Below, piece after piece: positions 18,689-48,898 of a stretch of 64,000 nucleotides of DNA (position 1 is the stretch's first letter; each line of letters opens with the position of its first letter). The stretch comes from Gammaproteobacteria bacterium (lineage in GTDB: Bacteria; Pseudomonadota; Gammaproteobacteria; Arenicellales; JAJDZL01). The stretch is taken from positions 1-64,000 of the forward strand of contig JAJEHQ010000007.1 of the NCBI GenBank assembly GCA_022823625.1, in the 5' to 3' direction. The notes under the pieces are model-generated. The model was not told where the DNA came from, did no database searches, and saw only the letters and a program-made list of their open reading frames with translations. A program made the translations under genes and the position numbers.

Positions 18689-19705
18689 TTGAATTCAAAG
18701 GTACGAATTTCCTTTGAGTCTGCGCAGCACCTTGCTCACAAGGCACTCGTTGCACAAGGCGCTGATGATCTAGTTGCCGCTAGTGTAGCATCAGCACTAG
18801 TATTAGCCGACGCCGATGGACAGACCGGACATGGGCTGTCGAGAATTCCTTCCTATATTGATCAGATGCACTGCCAAAAGGTCGATGGGATGGCTCTTCC
18901 ATTCATTCAAAATAAATCTCATCAGAGTATCGAAATTGATGCAAATGGAGGATTCGCCTACCCGGCTATCAGTCTGGCTGTGGAAGAACTTCTGGCCGCC
19001 TGTAGAGAGCGCGGGGGTATTGTCATGGCAGGCATAGTCGGATCACATCACTGTGGAGTCGCAGGCCATCCAGTGGAAAAACTCGCTCAGGACGGATTTC
19101 TTGGACTTATGCTGGCTAACACACCTAAAGCGATACATGCTTTTGGGGGTGCAAAACCAATATTTGGAACCAATCCTATCGCGTTCGCCTGTCCCAGGAA
19201 ATTACATGATCCGATCGTGCTGGATCTATCTCTTTCGATCGCAGCGCGAGGAAAAATTGTGCAATCCGCAGGGCAGGGGAGTAATATTCCAGATGACTGG
19301 GGAGTAGATGAACAGGGCCAACCTACCACAGATCCTAAAGAAGTTCTGAAAGGTAGCCTGAATGCAATAGGAGGAACGAAAGGGATGGCACTGGCACTAA
19401 TGGTTGAAATACTAGCCGGCGCTTTTGTCAATAGTCACTTTGGTTTTCAGGCATCTTCATTTTTTGATCGAGAGGGTGGTCCACCTCGAGTCGGTCAACT
19501 CCTAATTTGCATGAATCCACTTGAATTCAATCCAGAATTTTTCAAGCAGATTGAAACTTTAGTGGAAAAAATCCGCGAAGAGCAACCGGCTCGATTACCT
19601 GGTTCAAAACGTTTTGCGAACAGAAAAGCAGCAGAGCATTCTGGATTGGATTATTCGGAAGCGTTGATTAATACGATAGAACTTTTAGCACAAATCAGTC
19701 GTTAG
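18689..19705 (+). CDS. ComC-like malate/L-lactate/sulfolactate dehydrogenase
   Basis: A 338-residue member of the Ldh2/MDH2/ComC family of NAD(P)-dependent 2-hydroxyacid dehydrogenases. Family blocks are ADADGQTGHGLSRIPSY near 33-49, GIVGSHHCGVAGHPVE near 116-131, and GTNPIAFACPR near 162-172. ComC reduces sulfopyruvate to (R)-sulfolactate. In the SuyAB context this enzyme would move sulfolactate between enantiomers or to sulfopyruvate; a SlcC-type partner is not visible. The start is TTG, 8 bp after the stop of the alcohol dehydrogenase gene. It ends the cluster and converges on the methyltransferase-like gene 5 bp away. Confidence 0.72.
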   Translation: MNSKVRISFESAQHLAHKALVAQGADDLVAASVASALVLADADGQTGHGLSRIPSYIDQMHCQKVDGMALPFIQNKSHQSIEIDANGGFAYPAISLAVEELLAACRERGGIVMAGIVGSHHCGVAGHPVEKLAQDGFLGLMLANTPKAIHAFGGAKPIFGTNPIAFACPRKLHDPIVLDLSLSIAARGKIVQSAGQGSNIPDDWGVDEQGQPTTDPKEVLKGSLNAIGGTKGMALALMVEILAGAFVNSHFGFQASSFFDREGGPPRVGQLLICMNPLEFNPEFFKQIETLVEKIREEQPARLPGSKRFANRKAAEHSGLDYSEALINTIELLAQISR

Positions 19706-20599: not shown

Positions 20600-21190
20600 T
20601 TATTTACTCGCAACCTGGCTGGGTACAGCAGGTCTCGAAGGCTTGGTCTGCGAGGTTGAGGCTGAAGCTTCAGCAGATTTTGTCTTTCTCTCCCTCAACA
20701 TTTCTACAGAACCATTAAACGTGGACCCTTTATCGAGGATCACATTAGCAGCATGAATGTCACCTTCCACGCTACCTGTCGAAACTAAATGTAAAGTGTC
20801 ATTAGCCGTTGCGTTGCCAACAAGTTTCCCATGAATTGTGATGTTTTTCGCACTGACAGTAGCCTCGGCGTGCCCGGTTTCTTCAATTATTACAACGTTT
20901 TTGTTTGCTTCAATTGAACCTTTAAATTTACCGTAAACCCTGATGTCTGATTGACCGGATATTTCCCCTTTTAGCGTAGTCTGAGCGCTAATGATCGTCG
21001 GTTCAACTGAAGCAAGCTCGCTTCTCGCTACAGCACTGGTTCTGTCAAGGGCCGTGTAACCAGCACTTCGGGCTTCTTTTTCTGGTTTTTCAGTTTTCGC
21101 AGGAATGGATTGCCGCATTGATTCTACTTGCGATGGTACGCTTGGTGCAGTCTGTGGTTGTTGTGATGAAGGATTATCTTTTTTCCACAT
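20600..21190 (-). CDS. Bactofilin (polymer-forming cytoskeletal protein)
   Basis: A 196-residue bactofilin. Bactofilins self-assemble into nucleotide-free filaments at the membrane and organise cell-wall or stalk/polarity proteins. The beta-helical core spans about residues 60-160 and shows the repeating hydrophobic pattern with glycines (TTLKGEISGQSDIRVYGKFKGSI, then HGKLVGNATANDTLHLV, then GSVEGDIHAANVILDKGSTFNGSV). The Pro/Ser/Lys-rich tails before and after it are probably disordered. The neighbouring dif site places it at the probable terminus, but a role there is not implied. Confidence 0.9.
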   Translation of the reverse strand: MWKKDNPSSQQPQTAPSVPSQVESMRQSIPAKTEKPEKEARSAGYTALDRTSAVARSELASVEPTIISAQTTLKGEISGQSDIRVYGKFKGSIEANKNVVIIEETGHAEATVSAKNITIHGKLVGNATANDTLHLVSTGSVEGDIHAANVILDKGSTFNGSVEMLRERKTKSAEASASTSQTKPSRPAVPSQVASK

Positions 21191-21602
21191 AATTAAGACC
21201 TCAATTGGAAAGATTTACTCGGCAAGCACAACAGGAATAGAACAATTATTCAAGTGCAAATATTCGATAGTTCAATTATATGACAGCGTCCTATGGGCAA
21301 GTATTTTTAATAAACGAGGCAATGATCATATTGGATGGTTTCAAAAGTCAATTCTGTCAAATTGACGGTTATCAACTGGAAAGGGGAACAATTGAGGGCA
21401 TTACATTTCTAACTTAAATTTTAAATGAAAAACAACACATAAAGAATTGTTGTAGCATTATTTATAAGTTAAGTGCCAAAACTTATTGCTGAACGAATCA
21501 CATGAACGCCGGAAATAGGAACAACAGTATCACAGGTACTGGAACCTTATCCTGTCTCTCCACCACTATTATTCTTCAAATGTCAATCCGGAGATAATAG
21601 AA

Positions 21603-21630
21603 ATATAACATAATATACATTATACGAAGT
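21603..21630 (-). other. dif: dif site (XerCD chromosome-dimer resolution site)
   Basis: On the minus strand the 28 bp starting at 21630 read an 11-bp XerC-type arm (ACTTCGTATAA), a 6-bp centre (TGTATA) and an 11-bp XerD-type arm (TTATGTTATAT). Compared by eye with the E. coli dif sequence known to me, 23 of 28 positions agree, including an uninterrupted run of 18 over the inner XerC arm, centre and inner XerD arm. It lies in a 687-bp gene-free interval. Gene direction changes on either side as expected for a terminus. XerC and XerD would act here, directed by FtsK. Confidence 0.85.
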
Positions 21631-21877
21631 TGTATCCACATCCATTTCACATGAACTAACCAACTCCATTTCGGAACAATTCCCTACTCTGTCAGTTGCT
21701 GTCGTATAGGAAATTTGGGCTGCTGACGATGGAAACAGCAGAAAGTAAAATATAGAGTGGTAAAAATTATTATGGACTTCGCTAACTCAGTAAGCAAATT
21801 GTCTGTTCTAAGTTGAACAAAAAAGTATTGCTGTCGTTTGAATTGAATTCCGTAGTTCACATTGATGGAGATTTCAA

Positions 21878-22363
21878 TTGGTAATCTTAACAATTCTTCT
21901 CTTGCCAATCTGTTTGTTAGTCGTTTGGTTGGTCATTGGTGGCCGAGGAAAAGATAGTGGAGTTGGTGGATTTTTGTCCTGTCGCAGAATTTCCGGACTC
22001 GATGGTAGCGATTATTTGATTCGTCGCTATTTGCTACCAAGAAACAAGATTCTGAATATTTACCTGCATAGATTTTTGGGAAGCGATGATGATCGCGCCC
22101 TTCATGACCATCCCTGGTATTCGATTAGCTGTGTGCTAAAAGGTCGTTTAATTGAACATCGCCCCGATGGTTCGACTAGGGAAATTCGTCGAGGAAAGAT
22201 TGCGATTCGCAATCCAAGATTCCAACATCGGATTGAATTACCTGACGGTGAAACCGCTACTACACTTTTTATTACCGGTCCTGTGGTTCGAACTTGGGGG
22301 TTTGTCTGCCCGCAAGGATGGATTTCCTGGAGCGAATATGGCAATAAAGGGGGTTGTGACTAG
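21878..22363 (+). CDS. Cupin-like hypothetical protein with an N-terminal membrane helix
   Basis: A 161-residue protein. Residues 2-21 form a hydrophobic helix that could anchor it in the membrane. The rest has a small cupin-like core: YLHRFLGSDDDRALHDHPW with two close histidines, a glycine after the expected turn, then HRIELPDGETATTLFITGP and a Trp-rich end (TWGFVCPQGWISW). Similar proteins occur in bacteria and in phages; the function is unknown. The start is TTG at 21878 with GGAG 7 nt upstream; no ATG in frame is available because a TGA lies just upstream. It is next to the dif site. Confidence 0.65.
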   Translation: MVILTILLLPICLLVVWLVIGGRGKDSGVGGFLSCRRISGLDGSDYLIRRYLLPRNKILNIYLHRFLGSDDDRALHDHPWYSISCVLKGRLIEHRPDGSTREIRRGKIAIRNPRFQHRIELPDGETATTLFITGPVVRTWGFVCPQGWISWSEYGNKGGCD

Positions 22364-22466
22364 TCAAATTCAACGATCTGCAAACGTATGATTGTTAATA
22401 TCACTCTTGGTAATTCTTTGAATTCAGTCTGCATCGTTAATGCGCGATTCGTGAATCTTTACTGAT

Positions 22467-22533
22467 AAATTACCTTCGCAAATTGGATTTATACCAATTC
22501 TACGAATTGCCAACTTTGAAACTGGTGATTGAA
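22467..22533 (+). repeat. Left copy of an imperfect direct repeat flanking the tcmP pair
   Basis: AAATTACCT at 22467 and GAATTGCCAACTTTGAAA at 22504 recur with nearly the same internal spacing at 24339 and 24376. The middle third differs. The two copies bracket the TcmP and three-Cys genes, as element ends or att-like sites might. No integrase is nearby and the DNA is AT-rich, so this is tentative. Confidence 0.35.
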
Positions 22534-22572
22534 TTTTCGAACTAGATGCACCATCACACATGGACAATAAGA

Positions 22573-22586
22573 GATCCTTAGGGATC
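22573..22586 (+). other. Small hairpin in the cupin-tcmP gap
   Basis: GATCC-TTAG-GGATC forms a 5-bp stem with a tetraloop, followed by AATTATT. It could be a weak terminator for the cupin-like gene about 210 bp upstream. The rest of the 388-bp gap (22364-22751) shows only the repeat described separately. Confidence 0.25.
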
Positions 22587-22751
22587 AATTATTGCAGTAA
22601 ATACAATGAATTACAAGTTATTACTTGGTTAATTGAATTACTTTGGCAATCACCTTTTCACCAACAACAAATCGATTAACTAATTTCATAACATTGAGAC
22701 CCTTTTTGTTCAAGTGATACTAACATTAGAGATTAGTAAATAAGGCCTGAA

Positions 22752-23600
22752 ATGACGACTGATTCTAGCCAGTTTGGCGGAAAATGGACAAAAGAAAAAC
22801 TGAAAATTCTTGAAAATTATCTTGATTCATATACCACTGCATTAAAGAATCAGAGTTTTGACCTTGTGTACATTGACGCATTCGCAGGTGATGGTTTCAT
22901 AAATACAGTTAGTGACGCGGAGTCAGATACGAAAGAATTTTTGGAAGGTTCAGTACTACGGGCACTAAAAATTAACGACAAACCTTTCGACCAACTTGTT
23001 CTCATTGAAAAGAACCCTCATCGTATAGAACGATTGGAAACATTGGTTGAAGAATATTCGAATCATAGAGATGTCAAAATTGAACAAGCTGATGCAAATG
23101 ACTATCTATCAACATGTGGCAAATTCTTAAGAGGCAAACGCGGCGTACTATTTCTAGACCCATTTAGTACAGAGGTTAGCTGGCAAACATTAGAGAAGAT
23201 AGCAGGGTACGAATCGCTTGATACATGGCTACTATTTCCCGTTAGTGCAATTTCTCGCATGTTACCAAGAGAAAAAAGACCGGACGAAATAAGTGAAAAT
23301 TTGGTTGAATGTTTGAACAAAGTCTACGGAGATGAAAGCTGGCGGGAACTTTATACTGAAAGTCCTCAACAAACTCTATTTGGCGAACCTGGATACGAGC
23401 GAAATCCAGGTATAGACGGACTAGTTCGAATTTACAAGGAAAAGCTTAGATCTTTACTTGGTAGAAGATTTCTTGAAAAGCATCGAGATTTGAAGAACTC
23501 AAAAAATTCCACGCTGTTTGCGTTTATGTTTTTTGTAGGGAATCAAAAAGGTATTAGTCTAGCAGGGAAAATCGCTAATCATATATTAGACGAGATTTAA
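22752..23600 (+). CDS. tcmP: Three-Cys-motif partner protein TcmP
   Basis: A 282-residue protein of the TcmP family, always encoded beside a three-Cys-motif (phage Gp37/Gp68-like) protein. Visible features are [13 protein letters not shown] at 36-48, a methyltransferase-like strand and loop, [14 protein letters not shown] near 83-96, the VLFLDPF block at 132-138, and [12 protein letters not shown] near 164-175. This pattern suggests a Rossmann fold related to DNA/RNA methyltransferases, but no reaction is established. The downstream partner starts 2 bp after the stop. The pair sits between dif and tatD in AT-rich DNA and looks acquired. Confidence 0.88.
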
Positions 23601-23602
23601 CA

Positions 23603-24322
23603 ATGACGACAAATTCCTCAATAGAGTGGACACAGGTTACTTGGAATCCAGTTACTGGATGTACAAAAATCAGTCATGGCTGCAAAAATTGTTATGCTGA
23701 ACGAATGTCTCGTCGCCTAAAAGCAATGGGAGCGAAGAAGTATAGCAATTCGTTTTCTGTCACAATTCATGAATCTGTGCTTGATGAACCAATGAAATGG
23801 TCCAAGCCTCGTTTGATCTTCGTTAATTCTATGTCCGACTTGTTTCATGAATCTGTTCCTGTATGGTTTATTGAGTCCGTGTTTGAAGTCATGAATCGGG
23901 CTTCTCAGCACACATTTCAAATTCTTACCAAGAGACCAACTCGGGTTGTTGAAATGAACGAAAAATTAAACTGGTTACCAAATGTTTGGTTTGGCGTAAG
24001 TATCGAGTCCGAAAGATGGATTGAACGACTGGACTTGCTAAAGAACTTGGATGCACACACAAAATTTCTCTCACTTGAACCTTTGTTAGGACCATTGCCT
24101 AACTTACAGTTAGAAGGAGTTGATTGGGTCATTGTGGGAGGAGAATCTGGGCCAAAGGCTAGACCTATCAAGGCCGAGTGGGTAAGAGAAATACGAGACA
24201 ACTGTGTAAGTCACAATGTACCATTTTTTTTCAAACAATGGGGTGGAGTCTTCAAGAAACAGGCGGGACGTTTGTTGGATAATCGAACATGGGATGAGAT
24301 GCCAGAGGTACATTCTAGTTAA
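23603..24322 (+). CDS. Three-Cys-motif protein, phage Gp37/Gp68 family (DUF5131)
   Basis: A 239-residue protein with Cys20-x6-Cys27-x2-Cys30 in [17 protein letters not shown], a cluster of the kind that binds 4Fe-4S in radical SAM-like enzymes. Other family blocks are [16 protein letters not shown] near 67-82, [11 protein letters not shown] near 106-116, VWFGVSIES near 128-136 and [15 protein letters not shown] near 175-189. The first family members were described in phages. The function is unknown; pairing with TcmP suggests a two-component modification or repair system for nucleic acid or nucleotide. It begins 2 bp after tcmP. Confidence 0.88.
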
Positions 24323-24338
24323 CGTGATACGCGGAATC

Positions 24339-24404
24339 AAATTACCTCTATAGGTAATCAGCCCTGAAAATTTTGGAATTTGCCAACTTTCAAAGTGATT
24401 AAAA
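24339..24404 (+). repeat. Right copy of an imperfect direct repeat flanking the tcmP pair
   Basis: AAATTACCT at 24339 and GAATTTGCCAACTTTCAAAG at 24376 match the copy at 22467-22533 in order and spacing. The left end also forms a hairpin (ATTACCT-CTAT-AGGTAAT, 24341-24358) just past the stop of the three-Cys gene, which could aid termination although no T run follows. Confidence 0.35.
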
Positions 24405-24510
24405 GTAACTATCACAGTTCTTGTGAATTCGCCGCTAGACTTGACAGAACAGTGGATTTGGAAAAGTGTCCAATCCAACTACAAACCCACAATTGACGAT
24501 TTCGCTGCAG

Positions 24511-25296
24511 CTAATAAACGCGGTTCAATTTTCGAATCTGAAACAAGTCAAGAAAATTGTTCGTTGTATTCTCCGCAAGGTTTTCCAGACTGATTCCCCT
24601 TAACTCTGCCAAAAATTCTGCCGTGTGACGCACATAGGCAGGTTGATTTTCTTTACCGCGCTTCGGGACCGGCGCCAAGTATGGAGCATCAGTTTCTATG
24701 AGCAATTTATCCATTGGAATTTTCTTCGCAACTTCCGCCAAGTCCTTAGCATTCTTAAAGGTAACAATTCCGGAGAATGAGATATAGAACCCTTCATTAA
24801 GCGCTGCTTTAGCCATTTCGTAGTCGCCAGTAAAGCAGTGCATCACTCCGCCCGCTTCCCTTGCCTGGTTATCCCGCATTATCGAAATTGTGTCTTCCGG
24901 TGCATTACGACTATGAACAATTATTGGTTTCTTTACGATACGTGCAGCTTCAATATGCCGTGCAAATCGGTCTCGTTGCCAATCCAGTTCACCAGAACTT
25001 CGATAGTAGTCCAATCCGGTTTCGCCAATGGCAACAACCCTGTCATCCATTCCGAGATCAACCAGCCTCTGGATACTTGGATCTTCACCATCGGTTTCGT
25101 TAGGATGCACACCAACTGATGGATAGATGTTTTCATGTGCATCACTCAGTTCCAGTATTTGCGGATAATCTTCTAGATTGACTGCAACACACAGCATGTA
25201 CTTTACGTCCATCTGCTGTGCCAGATCCAGCACAGAATCAAACTTTTCCCATAGTTGGGGGAAATTGATGTGGCAATGACTATCTGCTAGTTCCAT
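24511..25296 (-). CDS. tatD: TatD-family metal-dependent DNase
   Basis: A 261-residue TIM-barrel metallohydrolase of the TatD/YcfH family, deoxyribonucleases thought to act in DNA repair or degradation. Metal ligands are visible in DSHCHIN (residues 5-11), GETGLDYY near 96-103, PIIVHSRNA near 129-137, MHCFTGD near 156-162 and ETDAPYLAP near 206-214. It is the last gene of the plsX-to-tatD run, 17 bp after holB, matching the E. coli position of ycfH. Confidence 0.93.
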   Translation of the reverse strand: MELADSHCHINFPQLWEKFDSVLDLAQQMDVKYMLCVAVNLEDYPQILELSDAHENIYPSVGVHPNETDGEDPSIQRLVDLGMDDRVVAIGETGLDYYRSSGELDWQRDRFARHIEAARIVKKPIIVHSRNAPEDTISIMRDNQAREAGGVMHCFTGDYEMAKAALNEGFYISFSGIVTFKNAKDLAEVAKKIPMDKLLIETDAPYLAPVPKRGKENQPAYVRHTAEFLAELRGISLENLAENTTNNFLDLFQIRKLNRVY

Positions 25297-25313
25297 AAAT
25301 GAATGTTCCTGAC

Positions 25314-26372
25314 TCAGCGTACACAGTTGTCGATTGCAATCAATGCATCTTCAACAGCCAACGTTTTGTCCAACCCCCCTGCCCTTATTTGATTTCTCAA
25401 CAATCCAATATGATCATAGATTAGAAACAACTTTCTTTGGTCTGTACGCAACGCAATCTCACTAAGCAACGTATCCCCTTTTTGGTTTCTTTCTCTGACT
25501 ACCGCAACCTCGCGGATCAACTTGCTGACCAGTCGAAGCAATTCATCCAAACATTCTGCTTCTCCGAGTTGAATACCCAACTCAATAAGTTCAAACAAAT
25601 CTCTCTGTTTGTGTCGCTGCAATTGTTTCAGGACCGTGGAAACGAATGCTGTTGAACGTAAGATTTCATCATTCTGTAATTGTTGCAATCCAACAATAGG
25701 TCCCTTTCCACATTGTTGAATTGCGCTGATCTGCTGTGGACGCAATTTCAGTTGCATTAACCATTGCTCAATCTGCTCTGATTCTGGAACTGGCAACAAT
25801 AATTTCTGGCAGCGACTGGTAATAGTAGGCAGCAAATTCTGCGTGCTCTGCGCGATTAATACCAGAAAGGTGTTTGGTGCCGGTTCTTCAAGAACTTTCA
25901 ACAGAGAATTCGCACCCGCATTTGTCATGGAATCGACCGGGTCAATGACAAAAACCTTGTTCACAGATAAGTGAGGCTTTACATTTGCGCTTTCGATCAA
26001 TGCTCTAATTTGATCGATAACAATTGTTGAGCGGGGATTTTTGCGTTTAGCACGAGAGGATTGATCATCCAGATATCGATCAGCATAACTGACTAACACC
26101 GAATCCATACTTTCGAGTTTGGTTTCAGAAGTCAGCACGTGCAAATCCGGGTGTGTGCCTGAACTGAATAGTCGACAATTTCTGCATTCCCCACATGGTG
26201 ATTTTTCTTCACCTTCACATAACAATGCTACCGCGAGTCTAGTCGCGAAACGAAGTTTCCCAATACCTTCTGTTCCCGTAAACAGAATCGCATGGGGCAG
26301 TCTACCTAATGATTCAACGACGCGCTCCCAGGCCTTGATCTGCCATGGATACAGTTCAAGATAGTTAGCCAT
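25314..26372 (-). CDS. holB: DNA polymerase III subunit delta prime
   Basis: A clamp-loader subunit that helps place the sliding clamp on primed DNA. The 352 residues show the AAA+ fold with LFTGTEGIGKLRFATRLA near 30-47, a zinc module CGECRNC near 60-66, and sensor-type blocks VFVIDPVDSMTNAGANSLLKVLEEP and TITSRC. It overlaps tmk by 8 bp and is followed by tatD, the normal E. coli order. Confidence 0.92.
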   Translation of the reverse strand: MANYLELYPWQIKAWERVVESLGRLPHAILFTGTEGIGKLRFATRLAVALLCEGEEKSPCGECRNCRLFSSGTHPDLHVLTSETKLESMDSVLVSYADRYLDDQSSRAKRKNPRSTIVIDQIRALIESANVKPHLSVNKVFVIDPVDSMTNAGANSLLKVLEEPAPNTFLVLIAQSTQNLLPTITSRCQKLLLPVPESEQIEQWLMQLKLRPQQISAIQQCGKGPIVGLQQLQNDEILRSTAFVSTVLKQLQRHKQRDLFELIELGIQLGEAECLDELLRLVSKLIREVAVVRERNQKGDTLLSEIALRTDQRKLFLIYDHIGLLRNQIRAGGLDKTLAVEDALIAIDNCVR

Positions 26373-27012
26373 GAGATTGATTTATAAAATCTTTGATGTA
26401 ACGCTGAGAAATGTCTTTAACTTCATTAACATCAAGAGTAGCATCAATGCATTTGATACGTTCTGGATGAAGAGAATGTAATCTAATGAATGCATTCCGC
26501 ACTCGATTGTGAAATTCATCTGTTTCTTTCTCAAACCGGTCCGGCGAATCAATCTGTCTAACTCGTTGCTGGGCAGTTTTGATGTCGGCATCAAACAACA
26601 ATGTGAGGTCTGGCCGAAATTCACCTTGAACCCATTGTTCAATCTGTGCAATCCTGTCAAAAGGCAATTCTCTCCCGCCTCCCTGGTATGCATAGGTTGA
26701 ATCGGTGAAACGATCACAGACTACCCAACGCCCTGCTTCAATATTCGGCAATATAAGTTGTTCCAGATGCTGAGAACGTGCGGCAAACATAAGCAGCACT
26801 TCAGCATTCGAAAGAATTTCGCTGTCTCTGGACAACACTAATTTGCGTAACTTTTCACCGATTGGTGTTCCGCCAACCTCGCGCGTAGTTACCACTTCAA
26901 ACCCAGCTTCTTGAATGGTTGAGACGACTGCCTCTGTTGCAACAGATTTGCCCGCACCATCCAGACCTTCCAAAGTGATGAATTTTCCTTGCATGCTCTG
27001 CTGGTCTGTCAT
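26365..27012 (-). CDS. tmk: Thymidylate kinase
   Basis: Phosphorylates dTMP to dTDP. The P-loop is LEGLDGAGKS, the DR motif DRFTDSTYAYQGGGRELP, and the lid region lies near RQIDSPDRFEKE. The start is not clear: ATG 27012, ATG 26994 and TTG 27057 are all in frame, and none has a good ribosome binding site. I take 27012, just outside the mltG coding region. The protein is then 215 residues. It lies between mltG and holB as in E. coli. Confidence 0.93.
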   Translation of the reverse strand: MTDQQSMQGKFITLEGLDGAGKSVATEAVVSTIQEAGFEVVTTREVGGTPIGEKLRKLVLSRDSEILSNAEVLLMFAARSQHLEQLILPNIEAGRWVVCDRFTDSTYAYQGGGRELPFDRIAQIEQWVQGEFRPDLTLLFDADIKTAQQRVRQIDSPDRFEKETDEFHNRVRNAFIRLHSLHPERIKCIDATLDVNEVKDISQRYIKDFINQSHG

Positions 27013-27037
27013 CTGTTCGGTTTGATGATTCTGAAAG

Positions 27038-28063
27038 TCAGCCTTGCTTTTCAACAATGCTACGGTAAATTCGAACAGCTTTAAGATGTTCGTCTATCGT
27101 ATTGGAAAATTGATGTGTTCCGTCACCACGAGAGACAAAATACAAATAACTGGTCTTTGCCGGACGGGCTGCGGCTTGAATGGCGGCTAACCCGGGCATC
27201 GCAATAGGAGTTGGCGGAAAACCGGAACGAGTATAGGTGTTGTACGGCGTATCCCGATCTAACTCGGATCTTTTGAGCGGCCCGTCAATTCCACCCAATC
27301 CATAAATCACGGTCGGGTCCATCTGCAGGCGCATACCCTTATTCAAGCGATTTACAATCACACCCGCAATAATTGGATATTCCTCGTCAACACTTGACTC
27401 TTTCTGAATTATTGATGCGGCAATCAGACACTCGTAGGCTGTTTCGTATGGTAAATCTGGATTTCGATTTGCCCACTCCCGCTCCAAAATCTCTTTCATC
27501 TGAGTATGAGCTCTTTGTAATATTGACAAATCAGTTTGCCCTGCGTTGAAGTTATAGGTATCCGGAAAAAACCAACCCTCAGGATGTTGTTCCAATATGC
27601 CAAGACGTTCCAGAATGGAATCAGCATCAACCTCTGCAAGTGTCTGCTTTAAATTTGCCTTGTTGCTCAGTTCAGCCAGAAACTCCCTGAAAGTCCAACC
27701 CTCAATGAACTGAATTTGATGATCGATTGACTTTCCTTCTACGATTTTCGACAATACCTGCAGAAGATTCAAATCTGGCTGAAATTGATACTCACCAGCC
27801 TTTAAAGAACGTTCAAATTGTCCCGTGCGCGCCACCCAAACCAACAATTCTGGGTTTGTCAGGTGACCGTTTTCGTGCAACATGTTCGCTAAGTCGGTTG
27901 CGTTTGCACCAGATTCGAACACATAAACCTGATCCACTGGTATGTTGAGTGGACGTGTAATCAGGTATGCTGCATAAGTAACCGTAGCAAACGCGAAAAG
28001 AGAAATGATAGCGACGAAAATTGGCCACGAACGTCGCTTACGAGATTTTCTTTTGACTGCCAC
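27038..28063 (-). CDS. mltG: Endolytic transglycosylase MltG
   Basis: An inner-membrane lytic transglycosylase that cuts nascent glycan strands and limits their length. One membrane helix follows the basic N-terminus (KRKSRKRRSWPIFVAIISLF, about 4-33), then a LysM-like region and the YceG catalytic domain with AASIIQKESS near 215 and the IIAGVIVNRLNKGMRLQMDPTVIYGLG block near 230-256. The 341 residues are normal. pabC, found between fabF and mltG in E. coli, is absent here. Confidence 0.94.
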   Translation of the reverse strand: MAVKRKSRKRRSWPIFVAIISLFAFATVTYAAYLITRPLNIPVDQVYVFESGANATDLANMLHENGHLTNPELLVWVARTGQFERSLKAGEYQFQPDLNLLQVLSKIVEGKSIDHQIQFIEGWTFREFLAELSNKANLKQTLAEVDADSILERLGILEQHPEGWFFPDTYNFNAGQTDLSILQRAHTQMKEILEREWANRNPDLPYETAYECLIAASIIQKESSVDEEYPIIAGVIVNRLNKGMRLQMDPTVIYGLGGIDGPLKRSELDRDTPYNTYTRSGFPPTPIAMPGLAAIQAAARPAKTSYLYFVSRGDGTHQFSNTIDEHLKAVRIYRSIVEKQG

Positions 28064-28132
28064 GTTTGAAATCAGTCAGGAAATTATTGTGTCGAGTCGA
28101 CAGAAAATTAGCTGTTACTTTCAGATGATAAT

Positions 28133-29374
28133 CTAACTGAATTTTCTGAATGCAAGTGACCCGTTTGTTCCACCAAATCCAAAGGAATTTGACAACGCAC
28201 CACCAATTTTTGTATCGCGTGCCGTGTGAGGTACATAATCAAGATCACATTGTGGATCAGGATCATCAAGATTTATCGTTGGAGGTGCTACTTGATGATA
28301 AATTGCCAGTACTGTGTGAATTGCTTCAACTCCTCCTGCTGCACCCAACAAATGTCCGACCATTGATTTTGAAGAGCTTACTGCGAGATTGAATGCATGG
28401 TCACCGAACAGCTTTTTGACCGCCATAGTTTCCGCAATGTCCCCCTGTGGTGTTGAAGTACCATGCGCGTTGATATAGTCAATTTCATCAGTGTTAGTTC
28501 TACCGCTTCTTAAGGCATTGGTCATACATCTAACCGCGCCGTTCCCATCCGGTGATGGTGCAGTGACATGGTGAGCGTCTCCACTCATTCCAAAGCCCGT
28601 CAATTCTGCGTAGATCCTGGCACCTCGACGCTTGGCACTCTCCAGTTCTTCAAGTACCAGAATACCAGCACCTTCTCCGATAACAAATCCATCGCGGCCC
28701 AAGTCCCACGGCCGACTAGCTGCTTCAGGGTCATCATTCCTTCGACTGAGTGCACGCGCGTTGGCAAATCCCGCGACCGATGTTGGTGTAATAGCTGCTT
28801 CCGTTCCGCCGGCAACCATTGCGTCTGCATCGCCAAATTGAATCAGTCGCGCAGCTTCTCCAATAGCGTGTGTTCCTGTCGTGCATGCAGTGGTTACCGC
28901 AATGTTTGGCCCTCTCAAACCATAGCTGATAGAGATATTGCCAGCCGCCATGTTAATGATTGACATGGGGATGTAAAACGGAGAAATTCGTCGTACCCCG
29001 TGCTCGTGTTTTTGTATGGTTGTGGCTTCAATCGTCGTAACTCCTCCGATACCTGCACCAACATAAACACCAACCAGATCCAAGTCAATATTGGAATCTA
29101 ACAGACCAGAATCCTTGATTGCTTCACCGGCAGCACACATGCTAAACTGAATGAACCGGTCCATTCTCCTGGCTTCCTTAGCCGATATGTGATCACTTGG
29201 ATCGAAATTGTCGACTTCTCCGGCAATTGTGACTGGAAATCCAGTCGTGTCAAACAAGGTGATGCTGCCCAATCCACTCTTCCCCGCGATCAAGTTCTCC
29301 CAATTCTCGGGAACTCCACAACCAATGGGCGAGATAGCACCAAGGCCAGTAATTACTACACGACGGCCTTCCAT
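28133..29374 (-). CDS. fabF: 3-oxoacyl-ACP synthase II
   Basis: Elongating condensing enzyme of type II fatty-acid synthesis. It has 413 residues, with the catalytic Cys164 in TTACTTGTHA, His in NAHGTSTPQGD and the second His in SMVGHLLGAAGG. It follows acpP by 87 bp on the same strand and precedes mltG by 69 bp. The FabF subtype rather than FabB is supported by length and by the acpP-fabF order. Confidence 0.96.
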   Translation of the reverse strand: MEGRRVVITGLGAISPIGCGVPENWENLIAGKSGLGSITLFDTTGFPVTIAGEVDNFDPSDHISAKEARRMDRFIQFSMCAAGEAIKDSGLLDSNIDLDLVGVYVGAGIGGVTTIEATTIQKHEHGVRRISPFYIPMSIINMAAGNISISYGLRGPNIAVTTACTTGTHAIGEAARLIQFGDADAMVAGGTEAAITPTSVAGFANARALSRRNDDPEAASRPWDLGRDGFVIGEGAGILVLEELESAKRRGARIYAELTGFGMSGDAHHVTAPSPDGNGAVRCMTNALRSGRTNTDEIDYINAHGTSTPQGDIAETMAVKKLFGDHAFNLAVSSSKSMVGHLLGAAGGVEAIHTVLAIYHQVAPPTINLDDPDPQCDLDYVPHTARDTKIGGALSNSFGFGGTNGSLAFRKFS

Positions 29375-29461
29375 TGGCTAATCAGTGACGGGGAAGAAAT
29401 TTTGGAGTGTGTATCGAAATGATGACTTCAATTGATTTCGCTTAAACCACCATCAAGAGGC

Positions 29462-29725
29462 TCATCCTTTGAAGTTCGCTTCAATGAAATCCACAGCTGA
29501 ACCGACAGTGGTTATGCTTTCCTGTATATCGTCTGGAATATCCAGGTCGAATTCCTGTTCTAGTTCCATCACGAGCTCTACGGTATCTAGCGAATCCGCA
29601 TGTAAATCATCGGTAAATGACGTGTCTCGAGTGACTACAGGAGGGGGATTTGTGTTTTCACACAACTTTTCGATTACAAGTTGAATGACTCGTTGTTCAA
29701 TTGTTTCCTGACCGCTGCCGTCCAT
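29462..29725 (-). CDS. acpP: Acyl carrier protein
   Basis: An 87-residue ACP carrying acyl chains on phosphopantetheine attached at Ser45 in DSLDTVELVMELEQEF. It is slightly longer than the usual 77-80 residues because of an N-terminal extension (MDGSGQETIEQRV); a shorter start in frame is not available. A possible own promoter lies in the gap behind fabG, as expected for this highly expressed gene. Confidence 0.95.
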   Translation of the reverse strand: MDGSGQETIEQRVIQLVIEKLCENTNPPPVVTRDTSFTDDLHADSLDTVELVMELEQEFDLDIPDDIQESITTVGSAVDFIEANFKG

Positions 29726-29788
29726 TAATGATTACCTCCGAGAAAGTAAGATTAATTGAAAAATGGTAACACTAACCAAAATAAAAAT

Positions 29789-29818
29789 TGTATATCGAAT
29801 TGCTGAATCTATTATCAA
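29789..29818 (-). promoter_or_regulatory. Probable acpP promoter
   Basis: On the minus strand TTGATA (29818-29813) and TATACA (29794-29789) are separated by 18 bp, with the -10 element about 65 bp before the acpP start. The match is moderate and its place in the fabG-acpP gap fits. Confidence 0.4.
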
Positions 29819-29821
29819 TGT

Positions 29822-30571
29822 TCAGTGTCGAATCATACCGCCATCAACAAAAATTGTCGAGCCGGTAATATAAGAGCTTTGCGATGATGCAAGAAAAACT
29901 ACAGCATTGGCGACTTCCTCGGGTTGCCCCATCCGTCCCAATGGGATATTGCTAAGTAAATTATCGCGTACCTTCTCATCAAGTACGTTGGTCATGTCTG
30001 TGTCAATGAACCCAGGCACAACCATATTTACGGTGACATTTCGGGTAGCAATTTCCATAGCGAGGGACTTTGAAAAACCCAGAATTGCAGACTTTGAAGC
30101 TGAGTAGTGTGCCTGTCCAACATTACCAATGTGTCCAACAACGGAAGAAACATTGATAATTCTTCCGTATCGCTGCCTCATCATTCCTCGCATAAACGTC
30201 TTACACATTCTGTATACAGAGTTGAGATTTGTCTCGATAATCTCTTCCCACTCTGCGTCTTTAATCCGCATCACCAAGTTGTTTCGAGAAATACCAGCGT
30301 TATTGACCAGAACACTCACGGCACCATATTTTTCTTGAATCTTCGTCTGGAGTTCGACAATAGAATCGACGTCGTTGACATCCAGACGCATCCCCTCACC
30401 CGACGCTCCTGACGTTTTCAGATATTCGGTAATTTGAGTCGCCCCGCTGTCAGTTGTCCCCGTGCCAATTACTACACCACTCTCGGCCGCAAAAGACTCA
30501 GCCACAGCGCGACCAATCCCTCGAGTCGCACCAGTAACCAAACAAATTTTGTCAGACAGTAGATCAGTCAT
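29822..30571 (-). CDS. fabG: 3-oxoacyl-ACP reductase
   Basis: NADPH-dependent reductase of fatty-acid elongation, an SDR of 249 residues. It has GATRGIG near residue 14, the NAG block [10 protein letters not shown], the catalytic Ser/Tyr/Lys in [21 protein letters not shown], and [15 protein letters not shown]. It begins 1 bp after fabH; fabD, normally between them, is missing. Confidence 0.95.
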
Positions 30572-30572
30572 T

Positions 30573-31541
30573 CTAGAATGTCAAAAATGCGGAACCCCAA
30601 GTAAATCCGCCACCAAATCCTTCGATCAAAATAGTATCGCCAGTTTTTATTCGCCCATCTCGAACGGCTGTATCCAATGCCAGCGGAATTGAGGCAGCCG
30701 AAGTATTTCCATGCTGATTTATTGTAACGATTACTTTCTCCATCGGTATACCCAATCGTTTGGCAGTCGCAGTAATAATTCGAGTGTTTGCCTGATGAGG
30801 AATCATCCAGTCAACCTGATCAACAGCTGCTTCGTTGGCCTCAAGTGCTTCGACTGCAATTTGTTCCATACATTTGACAGCAATTTTGAACACCTCACCA
30901 CCCTGCATCTGTGTATAGGCGGAACCGTTAATTACCTGGTCGAAATTTCGCGAAACGCCTACTGGTACACTCAATAAGTCTTTGTATGCACCGTTAGCGC
31001 GCAAGTGTGTGGAATGGATACCGGGCGTACCCGAAGCCTCCAATACAACAACACCCGCACCATCTCCAAATAGTACACATGTAGTGCGATCTGTCCAATC
31101 GATGATTCGGGAGAAGGTTTCTGCGCCAATCACCAATGCCCGATTTGCACAATTGGTACGAATAAATTTATCGGCGATATCAATGGCATATAAAAATCCG
31201 GCACATACTGCCTGCACATCAAACGCAGGTGAATTGCGGATACCCAGACGCTCCTGCAATATGCAGGCGGTACTGGGAAATACTTGGTCCGCCGTGGTTG
31301 TAGCTACAACGATTAGATCAATGTCAGTGGCATCAAAGCGACCTGATTCCATTGCAGCATAAACTGCCTGTTCCGCCAGGTCGCAAGTTGTTTCATCAGA
31401 ATGAGCGATGTGCCGTTGTTCGATGCCAGTTCTTGAATAGATCCAATCATGACTGGTGTCAACCATTTTTGCAAGGTCATAGTTGGTGACGACACCGGTC
31501 GGTAAATAGCTTCCAGTTGCAATGATTTTTGAGAAACTCAC
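30573..31541 (-). CDS. fabH: 3-oxoacyl-ACP synthase III
   Basis: Starts fatty-acid synthesis by condensing acetyl-CoA with malonyl-ACP. It has 322 residues, with catalytic Cys113 in [12 protein letters not shown], His in [11 protein letters not shown] and Asn in [11 protein letters not shown]. It overlaps plsX by 4 bp and is followed directly by fabG. Confidence 0.96.
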
Positions 31542-32554
31542 AAGGAACTCGCAGCAAGAATAGAAATCTGTTCATTTATTCTTGCAGGCACTTTATTTTT
31601 AACTTCATTCACCGCTTTACGCAATGCATGTTGAAATGCCAGCTGATCTGCCGCTCCGTGGCTTTTGATGACTGAACCAGTCAATCCGATTAGTGCTGCA
31701 CCGTTATACACCCGTGGATCGATTCTTTTTTTTGTGCGTCTGAATGCCGGTCGGGCAGCCAACGCTACCAACTTACTCATAATACTTTTCTCAAATTCTT
31801 CACGTAAGGTACTCTGAATAAAGTTCGAAACTCCTGCACCGGTCTTAATGACCACGTTGCCAGAAAATCCGTCACAAACGATCACATTCACATCACCGGA
31901 AAAAATTCTATCACCTTCTATGTATCCCTGATAATTTAGTTCACTTGCCTCAAACAGTGCAGCAGCATCCTTGATCGTTTGATTACCTTTAATCGCTTCA
32001 ATTCCGATATTCAATAACGCAACTTTTGGCTTGTCAATACCCTCCATGTATTTGACGAATGTAGCACCCATAACTCCAAATTGAAACAGCACCTGAGCCG
32101 AACACTCAACATTTGCACCTAGATCCAGAATGTTGACGAATCCGTCGACAGTTGGAATCTGTCCAATAATGGCGGGACGATGAATTCCCGGCAGGGGTCG
32201 CAGAATAACGTGAGCAATTGCGGTTAGCGCACCTGTGTTTCCGGCGCTGACGCAGGCACTGGCTGAACCCGATTTGACAAGATCCATCGCGACGCGCATT
32301 GAGGAGTCTCTCTTTCTGCGGAGTGCGAAGGTTGGTGAGTCATCCATCGCAACTGTTTCGGAAGCGTGATGAATTATGATACGAGAGGAGTCTGGATGGC
32401 TGTGCTGGTCAATCAGCGGTTCGAGTTGTTCCTGATCTCCAACCAGCACAAACTGCAAGTCATTGACGTCGGACAGCGCAGCTATGGTGGCAGGCACTGT
32501 AACTTGCGGCCCGAAATCCCCGCCCATCGCATCGACCGCAATGGAATTTACCAT
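31538..32554 (-). CDS. plsX: Phosphate acyltransferase PlsX
   Basis: Converts acyl-ACP to acyl-phosphate for phospholipid synthesis. It has 338 residues, with the N-terminal [17 protein letters not shown] block and [23 protein letters not shown] near 108-130. It lies between rpmF (67 bp upstream) and fabH (4-bp overlap), the conserved order. Confidence 0.96.
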
Positions 32555-47860: not shown

Positions 47861-48898
47861 CTATTTGAACTGACTCAACATGTCAAGATCATTTTTGAAG
47901 AACAAACGAAGATCGTTTACACCGTATCGCAGCATCGTGAAACGTTCTACACCCAGGCCAAAGGCATAACCGACAAAGCGTTCTCCATCAATACCAACAT
48001 CTTTGTAGAGGGCTGGATGAACCATTCCGCAACCTAATACTTCAAGCCAACCACTTCTTTTGCAAACATTACAACCATCTCCGTGACAGAAAACACAACT
48101 GATATCAACCTCAGCCGACGGTTCTGTAAAGGGAAAGTATGAGGGTCGAAATCGAAGTTTAAGCTGCTGTTCGAAAAACTCTGAAACAAAATACTCAAGC
48201 ACCCCTTTGAGGTCCGCAAATGTTGTTGTTTCATCGACAACAAGGCCCTCCAGTTGGTGAAACATCGGCGTATGTGTGATATCAGAATCGCAACGATAGA
48301 CGCGCCCAGGTGCCACCACTCGAATTGGTGGCTTATGGGTTCCCATGTACCGAATCTGAACGGGTGAGGTGTGCGTTCGTAAAAGTCTACCGTCAGGGAA
48401 ATAAAATGTATCCTGCATGGCCCGAGCAGGATGGTTTTCAGGAATATTCAAAGCCTCGAAGTTGTGGTAATCATCTTCAATCTCAGGCCCTACAGCAATA
48501 TCAAAACCGATGCTGAGAAAAATCTCCTGCATGCGCATCAATGTTCTGGTTAGGGGATGAGGGCCACCACTAAAATTACGGCGACCTGGAAGTGTCACAT
48601 CAATTCTTTCTGACTCCAGACGCTTGGTGTGAACAATCTGGAGTAATGCTTGCCGCTTGGTCTTAAGCAGCTTTTCAATTACACTCCTGGCCGAGGTGAT
48701 AGCTTTACCAGCTATAGGGCGTTCTTCAACGGGTAGGGAACCAATTGACTTGAGTTGTGCCGTAATGACACCTTTCTTCCCGAGGTATGCAACACGAACG
48801 CTATCAAGTTCAGGCTCACTTTCAACTGCCTCAATTTCAGCAGTCGCGCGAGCAACGACATCATCAAGTGATTGAATTTCACTCATGTTCGCACTCAA
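47861..48898 (-). CDS. pheS: Phenylalanine-tRNA ligase subunit alpha
   Basis: The catalytic subunit. It has 345 residues, with the class II motifs: motif 1/2 regions ([80 protein letters not shown]) and motif 3 ([22 protein letters not shown]). A small Cys-rich insertion ([16 protein letters not shown]) is seen. It is 16 bp upstream of pheT. Confidence 0.96.

Follow-up and report, generated by a model that had tools for sequence, protein, structure and literature searches.

The question that this locus raises is whether a 28-bp sequence at positions 21603-21630 (minus strand) of the window, the 64,000-nucleotide stretch of DNA analysed here, is the chromosomal dif site of its host, an uncultured gammaproteobacterium related to Arenicellales, and what the site says about the replication terminus and the genes around it. 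By its FabF, the host is nearest to gammaproteobacterial MAGs (97% and 86%), followed by Arenicellales and records labelled Acidiferrobacteraceae. Plasmids and phages can carry XerCD sites as well, and a genome need not be limited to one of them, so the uniqueness of this one needed testing.

A single dif-like sequence in the genome

Read on the minus strand, positions 21603-21630 are ACTTCGTATAATGTATATTATGTTATAT, which divides into a XerC arm (ACTTCGTATAA, 21620-21630), a central hexamer (TGTATA, 21614-21619) and a XerD arm (TTATGTTATAT, 21603-21613). The preliminary description had reported 23 of 28 positions identical to E. coli dif with an unbroken run of 18, and both re-reading and pairwise comparison confirm these figures; identity to B. 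subtilis dif is 22 of 28. Compared with the gammaproteobacterial consensus, RNTKCGCATAATGTATATTATGTTAAAT, the site has two mismatches and keeps the 11-6-11 layout. It shares with the E. coli site its length of 28 bp, that same layout, the hexamer TGTATA and an intergenic position. The two differ in the XerC arm, which is GGTGCGCATAA in E. coli, and at the end of the XerD arm, which reads TATAT here and TAAAT in E. coli.

Matches at least this good are expected by chance about 0.005 times in 3.18 Mb and 0.0001 times in 64 kb, counting both strands, and the window contains one match to the gammaproteobacterial consensus compared with none in 100 shuffles. Across the whole assembly (3,175,915 bases) there is a single match at up to 3 mismatches, and still only one when any central hexamer is accepted and at most 2 mismatches are allowed; the reversed control pattern has no match genome-wide. 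On the 71,292-base contig that contains the window, the second-best PWM score belongs to the reverse complement of dif itself. The site is single-copy, as is required of a chromosomal dif, in an assembly that is 97% complete and consists of 44 contigs. One best match in the full genome is also what the preliminary description had predicted; its broader statement, that XerCD sites are unique per chromosome, is true of this genome but does not hold strictly, as a few assemblies show two.

The site is found in an AT-rich, gene-free stretch of 687 bp (21191-21877) between a bactofilin gene and a small cupin-like gene, just as first described, and scans of this gap found no Rfam family, no terminator-like site and no notable repeats or promoters. 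The bactofilin gene on the left (20600-21190, minus strand, PF04519) is also the left neighbour of dif in the genus and in several other families of the order, where identity is 25-53%. The cupin-like open reading frame on the right (21878-22363, plus strand, 161 aa, with a PF02311 match just under the cut-off) is found only within the genus.

The site lies in the terminus region

We find that the cumulative GC skew of the contig reaches its maximum at 24468, 2.8 kb from dif, with a mean skew of +0.030 to the left of the site and -0.026 to the right; the skew reversal that the preliminary description had proposed as a check is present at the site. The survey of Carnoy and Roten (2009; PMC2731167) found proteobacterial dif sites to be intergenic and AT-rich, with the XerD arm better conserved, and to lie near the cumulative-skew maximum at a median distance of 7.3 kb. 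The host site agrees in all these respects, with a distance of 2.8 kb from the maximum. The strand on which genes are encoded also turns near 24.4 kb, which confounds the skew of the contig with gene strand, and because the two turn together, skew alone would not settle where the terminus is. We also observe that skew and gene strand are positive again right of 59 kb (59072-71292 of the contig), possibly through a local inversion or import.

A second indicator is the orientation of the KOPS octamer GGGNAGGG. One copy to the left of dif (19271-19278, plus strand) points at it, as do four on the minus strand to the right (starting at 25377, 42385, 50630 and, beyond the window, 64813 of the contig), while one copy at 48731 points away. 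Five of six copies directed towards dif is not significant by itself (p 0.22). We can examine the same question in a congener, G004, whose genome is a single contig of 3,141,570 bases, using the 400 kb that surround dif and 20 additional samples. There, 24 of the 25 KOPS within 200 kb point at dif (all 11 to the left, 13 of the 14 to the right), and the polarity turns between -8.2 and +4.0 kb of the site. On one arm of this chromosome skew is predominantly positive, on the other predominantly negative; its sign changes near dif and near dnaA, and dnaA (at 2,105,091) is 45% of the circle away from dif. Gene order around dif is identical in G004 and in the host apart from insertions, and the terminus result therefore carries over by orthology; with the host genome in 44 contigs, it is through G004 that the position opposite the origin is demonstrated. 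The site thus has the properties expected of a chromosomal dif: the skew reverses there, it lies opposite the origin and, as seen in G004, KOPS point at it from both sides.

The preliminary description had taken the site as the marker of the replication terminus. The skew, the KOPS of G004 and the distance to dnaA uphold this for the terminus region; they do not extend it to the exact point at which forks meet. What dif marks is the convergence of FtsK translocation, which is near that point and not necessarily exactly at it.

Recombination proteins and probable function

Both xerC and xerD, which the preliminary description had suggested looking for, are present in the genome. XerC scores 348 bits (cut-off 335) and its gene adjoins dapF, XerD scores 350 bits (cut-off 330) and is encoded on a different contig from xerC, and an 819-aa frame encodes FtsK with its gamma domain (90 bits). 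The E. coli system has the same three components and, judging by the congener, the same KOPS polarity.

Most likely, the site serves XerC and XerD, controlled by FtsK, in resolving chromosome dimers. In this scheme, an odd number of crossovers would join two sister chromosomes into one circle, and KOPS octamers would lead FtsK at the septum to dif, where its gamma domain would activate XerD. XerC and XerD, bound to the two 11-bp arms, would then swap strands across the 6-bp centre and convert the dimer into two circles. We infer the binding, activation and strand exchange at this site from the XerC, XerD and FtsK families.

Conservation of the site among relatives

We surveyed 60 related genomes, most of them of the same order as the host, and find a match at up to 3 mismatches in 54, nearly always one per genome; the reversed pattern has no match in any of the 60. 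Two further relatives, G003 (of the same genus) and G025, keep the arms around a changed centre (GGTGCA and CATTGA, respectively), bringing the total to 56 of 60, and four relatives have no match by either pattern search. Centres among the relatives include TGTATA, TATATA, TCTATA, CATTGA and GGTGCA, among others, and the inner portions of both arms are nearly fixed across the aligned sites; the flanks have no pattern common to different families. The XerCD arms are bound by the recombinases, and the centre need only match between recombining partners; fixed arms and a variable centre are what this chemistry leads one to expect. In the host, the XerD arm ends in TATAT and not in the usual AAAT or AAGT, an ending common only to the sibling G005 (TAATAT).

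Two side observations belong here. Changed central hexamers with the arms kept (GGTGCA, CATTGA or CATAGA) occur at L187 (G003), L188 (G025), L080 and L083. Two dif-like sites in one assembly are seen in G057 (L219 and L220), G110, G115, G161 and G237, and in G115 the two share a contig, lie 29 kb apart and face opposite ways. Such pairs could stem from contamination, from a second replicon or from elements that use Xer.

The 28-mer is unique in the genome and its arms are conserved; XerC, XerD and FtsK-gamma are all encoded, skew reverses in the contig, and KOPS converge on the site in the congener. On this evidence we regard it as almost certainly a genuine chromosomal dif, situated in this bacterium's terminus region. 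As a dif, the site is ordinary, and the preliminary description had identified it correctly.

Other explanations for the site

Could the sequence instead be a plasmid-type or mobile-element Xer site, either a pdif or the attachment site of an element that uses XerCD? This possibility is raised by an AT-rich segment of 2.16 kb (22368-24523) that begins 0.7 kb from dif. By blastn, the segment measures 2156 bp in the host and is replaced by 131 bp in the sibling G005, with DNA identity between host and sibling of 86-91% on either side. It carries tcmP (22752-23600) and a DUF5131 gene (23603-24322), which together form a candidate defence pair listed by PADLOC as PDC-M41A/B. Insertions also occur at this place in G004, with 10.7 kb between the cupin gene and tatD and 7.3 kb between tatD and holB. 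More generally, mobility genes are reported to adjoin about one in four dif sites of Proteobacteria (PMC2731167). We considered that the segment might be an element integrated at dif (IMEX) and rejected this: the genome and the contig contain no second Xer site, and hence no attL/attR pair, so the segment was not integrated at dif. The gene order around dif is also unchanged in siblings that do not have the insert, and both skew and KOPS turn at the site. Finally, the operon next to the site is chromosomal and essential in E. coli. We therefore consider a mobile Xer site very improbable and retain the chromosomal dif.

A lox-type site, used by a Cre-like recombinase, is even less credible. The longest stretch in common with loxP of phage P1 (over 21603-21633) is 17 contiguous nucleotides, AACTTCGTATAATGTAT, but this agreement covers no more than the left arm and six of the spacer bases. 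The end of the spacer, the right arm and the recombinase differ: in place of an inverted loxP arm there is the XerD arm TTATGTTATAT, so that of the two 13-bp inverted arms that flank the 8-bp spacer of a loxP site only one is present. The TTCGTATAATGTAT form, moreover, is common among the natural dif sites of the order. A chance match, for which the AT-richness of the gap might speak, can be dismissed for practical purposes given the expectation of about 0.005 per genome and the orthologous position and sequence of the site in sibling genomes.

Linkage of dif to the fab-tmk-holB-ycfH operon

Now we consider the genes beyond the insert. An operon with the order ycfH/tatD, holB, tmk, mltG, fabF, fabG, fabD and fabH occupies 24511-32554 on the minus strand and is transcribed towards dif (the names tmk, mltG and fab are assigned by position and by similarity to the E. 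coli operon). Within the order, 46 genomes are informative in that they have at least 5 kb of sequence on the operon side. Counting from our table, the operon is linked to dif in 30 of these, drawn from 8 of 12 family labels, and in all 30 the XerC arm faces the operon, whose transcription runs towards dif. The tatD stop codon is just 45-140 bp from dif in several families, with bactofilin on the opposite side.

The same arrangement is seen outside the order. In a second sample of 40 genomes from other gammaproteobacterial families, chosen solely for having a dif match on a long contig, operon genes lie within 10 kb of dif in 14, always on the same side and strand. An all-against-all comparison of the open reading frames within 10 kb of dif in 51 genomes, in which genes were not chosen beforehand, returns as the most frequent neighbours holB (21 genomes), tmk (20), tatD (20), mltG (19), a PilZ protein (17) and fabF (14), on the same side and strand with one exception. 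Separately, the comparison shows a gene of about 380 aa resembling class V aminotransferases or cysteine desulfurases (a name that we give from reading the sequence) near dif in 12 of the 51 genomes (L161 and 11 other loci); it lies on the same side of dif as the operon but is encoded on the opposite strand.

The linkage can also be expressed as a distance along the chromosome. Among 14 one-contig genomes from other families (six of whose lengths are rounded), tmk is at a median of 3.7% of a half-chromosome from dif, compared with the 50% expected, and within 3% in 7 of the 14; the latter corresponds to p ~6e-8 if positions are uniform and genomes independent, an assumption of independence that relatives violate. 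In three of the 14 (G181, G207 and G168) tmk is on the other side of dif, still 10 kb away in G181.

In E. coli K-12, dif (1590750-1590777, minus strand) is about 435 kb from tmk-holB-ycfH, and the operon is on the opposite side relative to the orientation of dif. We rejected the idea that E. coli shares the operon's side of dif, as its site is on the minus strand. That the operon of E. coli is far from dif and mirrored may be why the linkage was overlooked: a search of the open-access literature found no published description of a bactofilin-dif, holB-dif or operon linkage, and the linkage across many related bacteria appears not to have been described before. Variable flanking nucleotides have been read as placing dif sites in different genetic environments (Carnoy and Roten, 2009; PMC2731167); at the level of genes, by contrast, we find the neighbourhood to be recurrent.

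Discussion

How should a recurrent gene order beside dif be understood? The interpretation that we lean towards, with some reserve, is that the gammaproteobacterial terminus ancestrally had dif linked to ycfH-(pilZ)-holB-tmk-mltG-(pabC)-fabF, with the XerC arm facing these genes, an arrangement that many families have retained and E. coli has lost. In its simplest form, an old gene order has presumably been kept because breaks beside dif would upset the polarity of KOPS and because the operon is essential and runs in the direction of replication; rearrangements that end beside dif would misorient KOPS or the operon and probably be lost for that reason. Late replication may possibly play a role for the operon genes.

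For the host, dif puts the window in the terminus region and fixes the replichore directions for the remaining annotation. Terminus regions are usually thought of as plastic, and a conserved linkage of dif to the operon would contrast with this. If the linkage holds in rooted sampling, the position of the terminus relative to some genes survives very long evolution. The linkage, if true, would also offer a gene landmark by which to locate dif when an assembly is fragmented, as well as a natural test of KOPS polarity as a limit on rearrangement; if it is indeed ancestral, the terminus itself has a fixed gene landmark.
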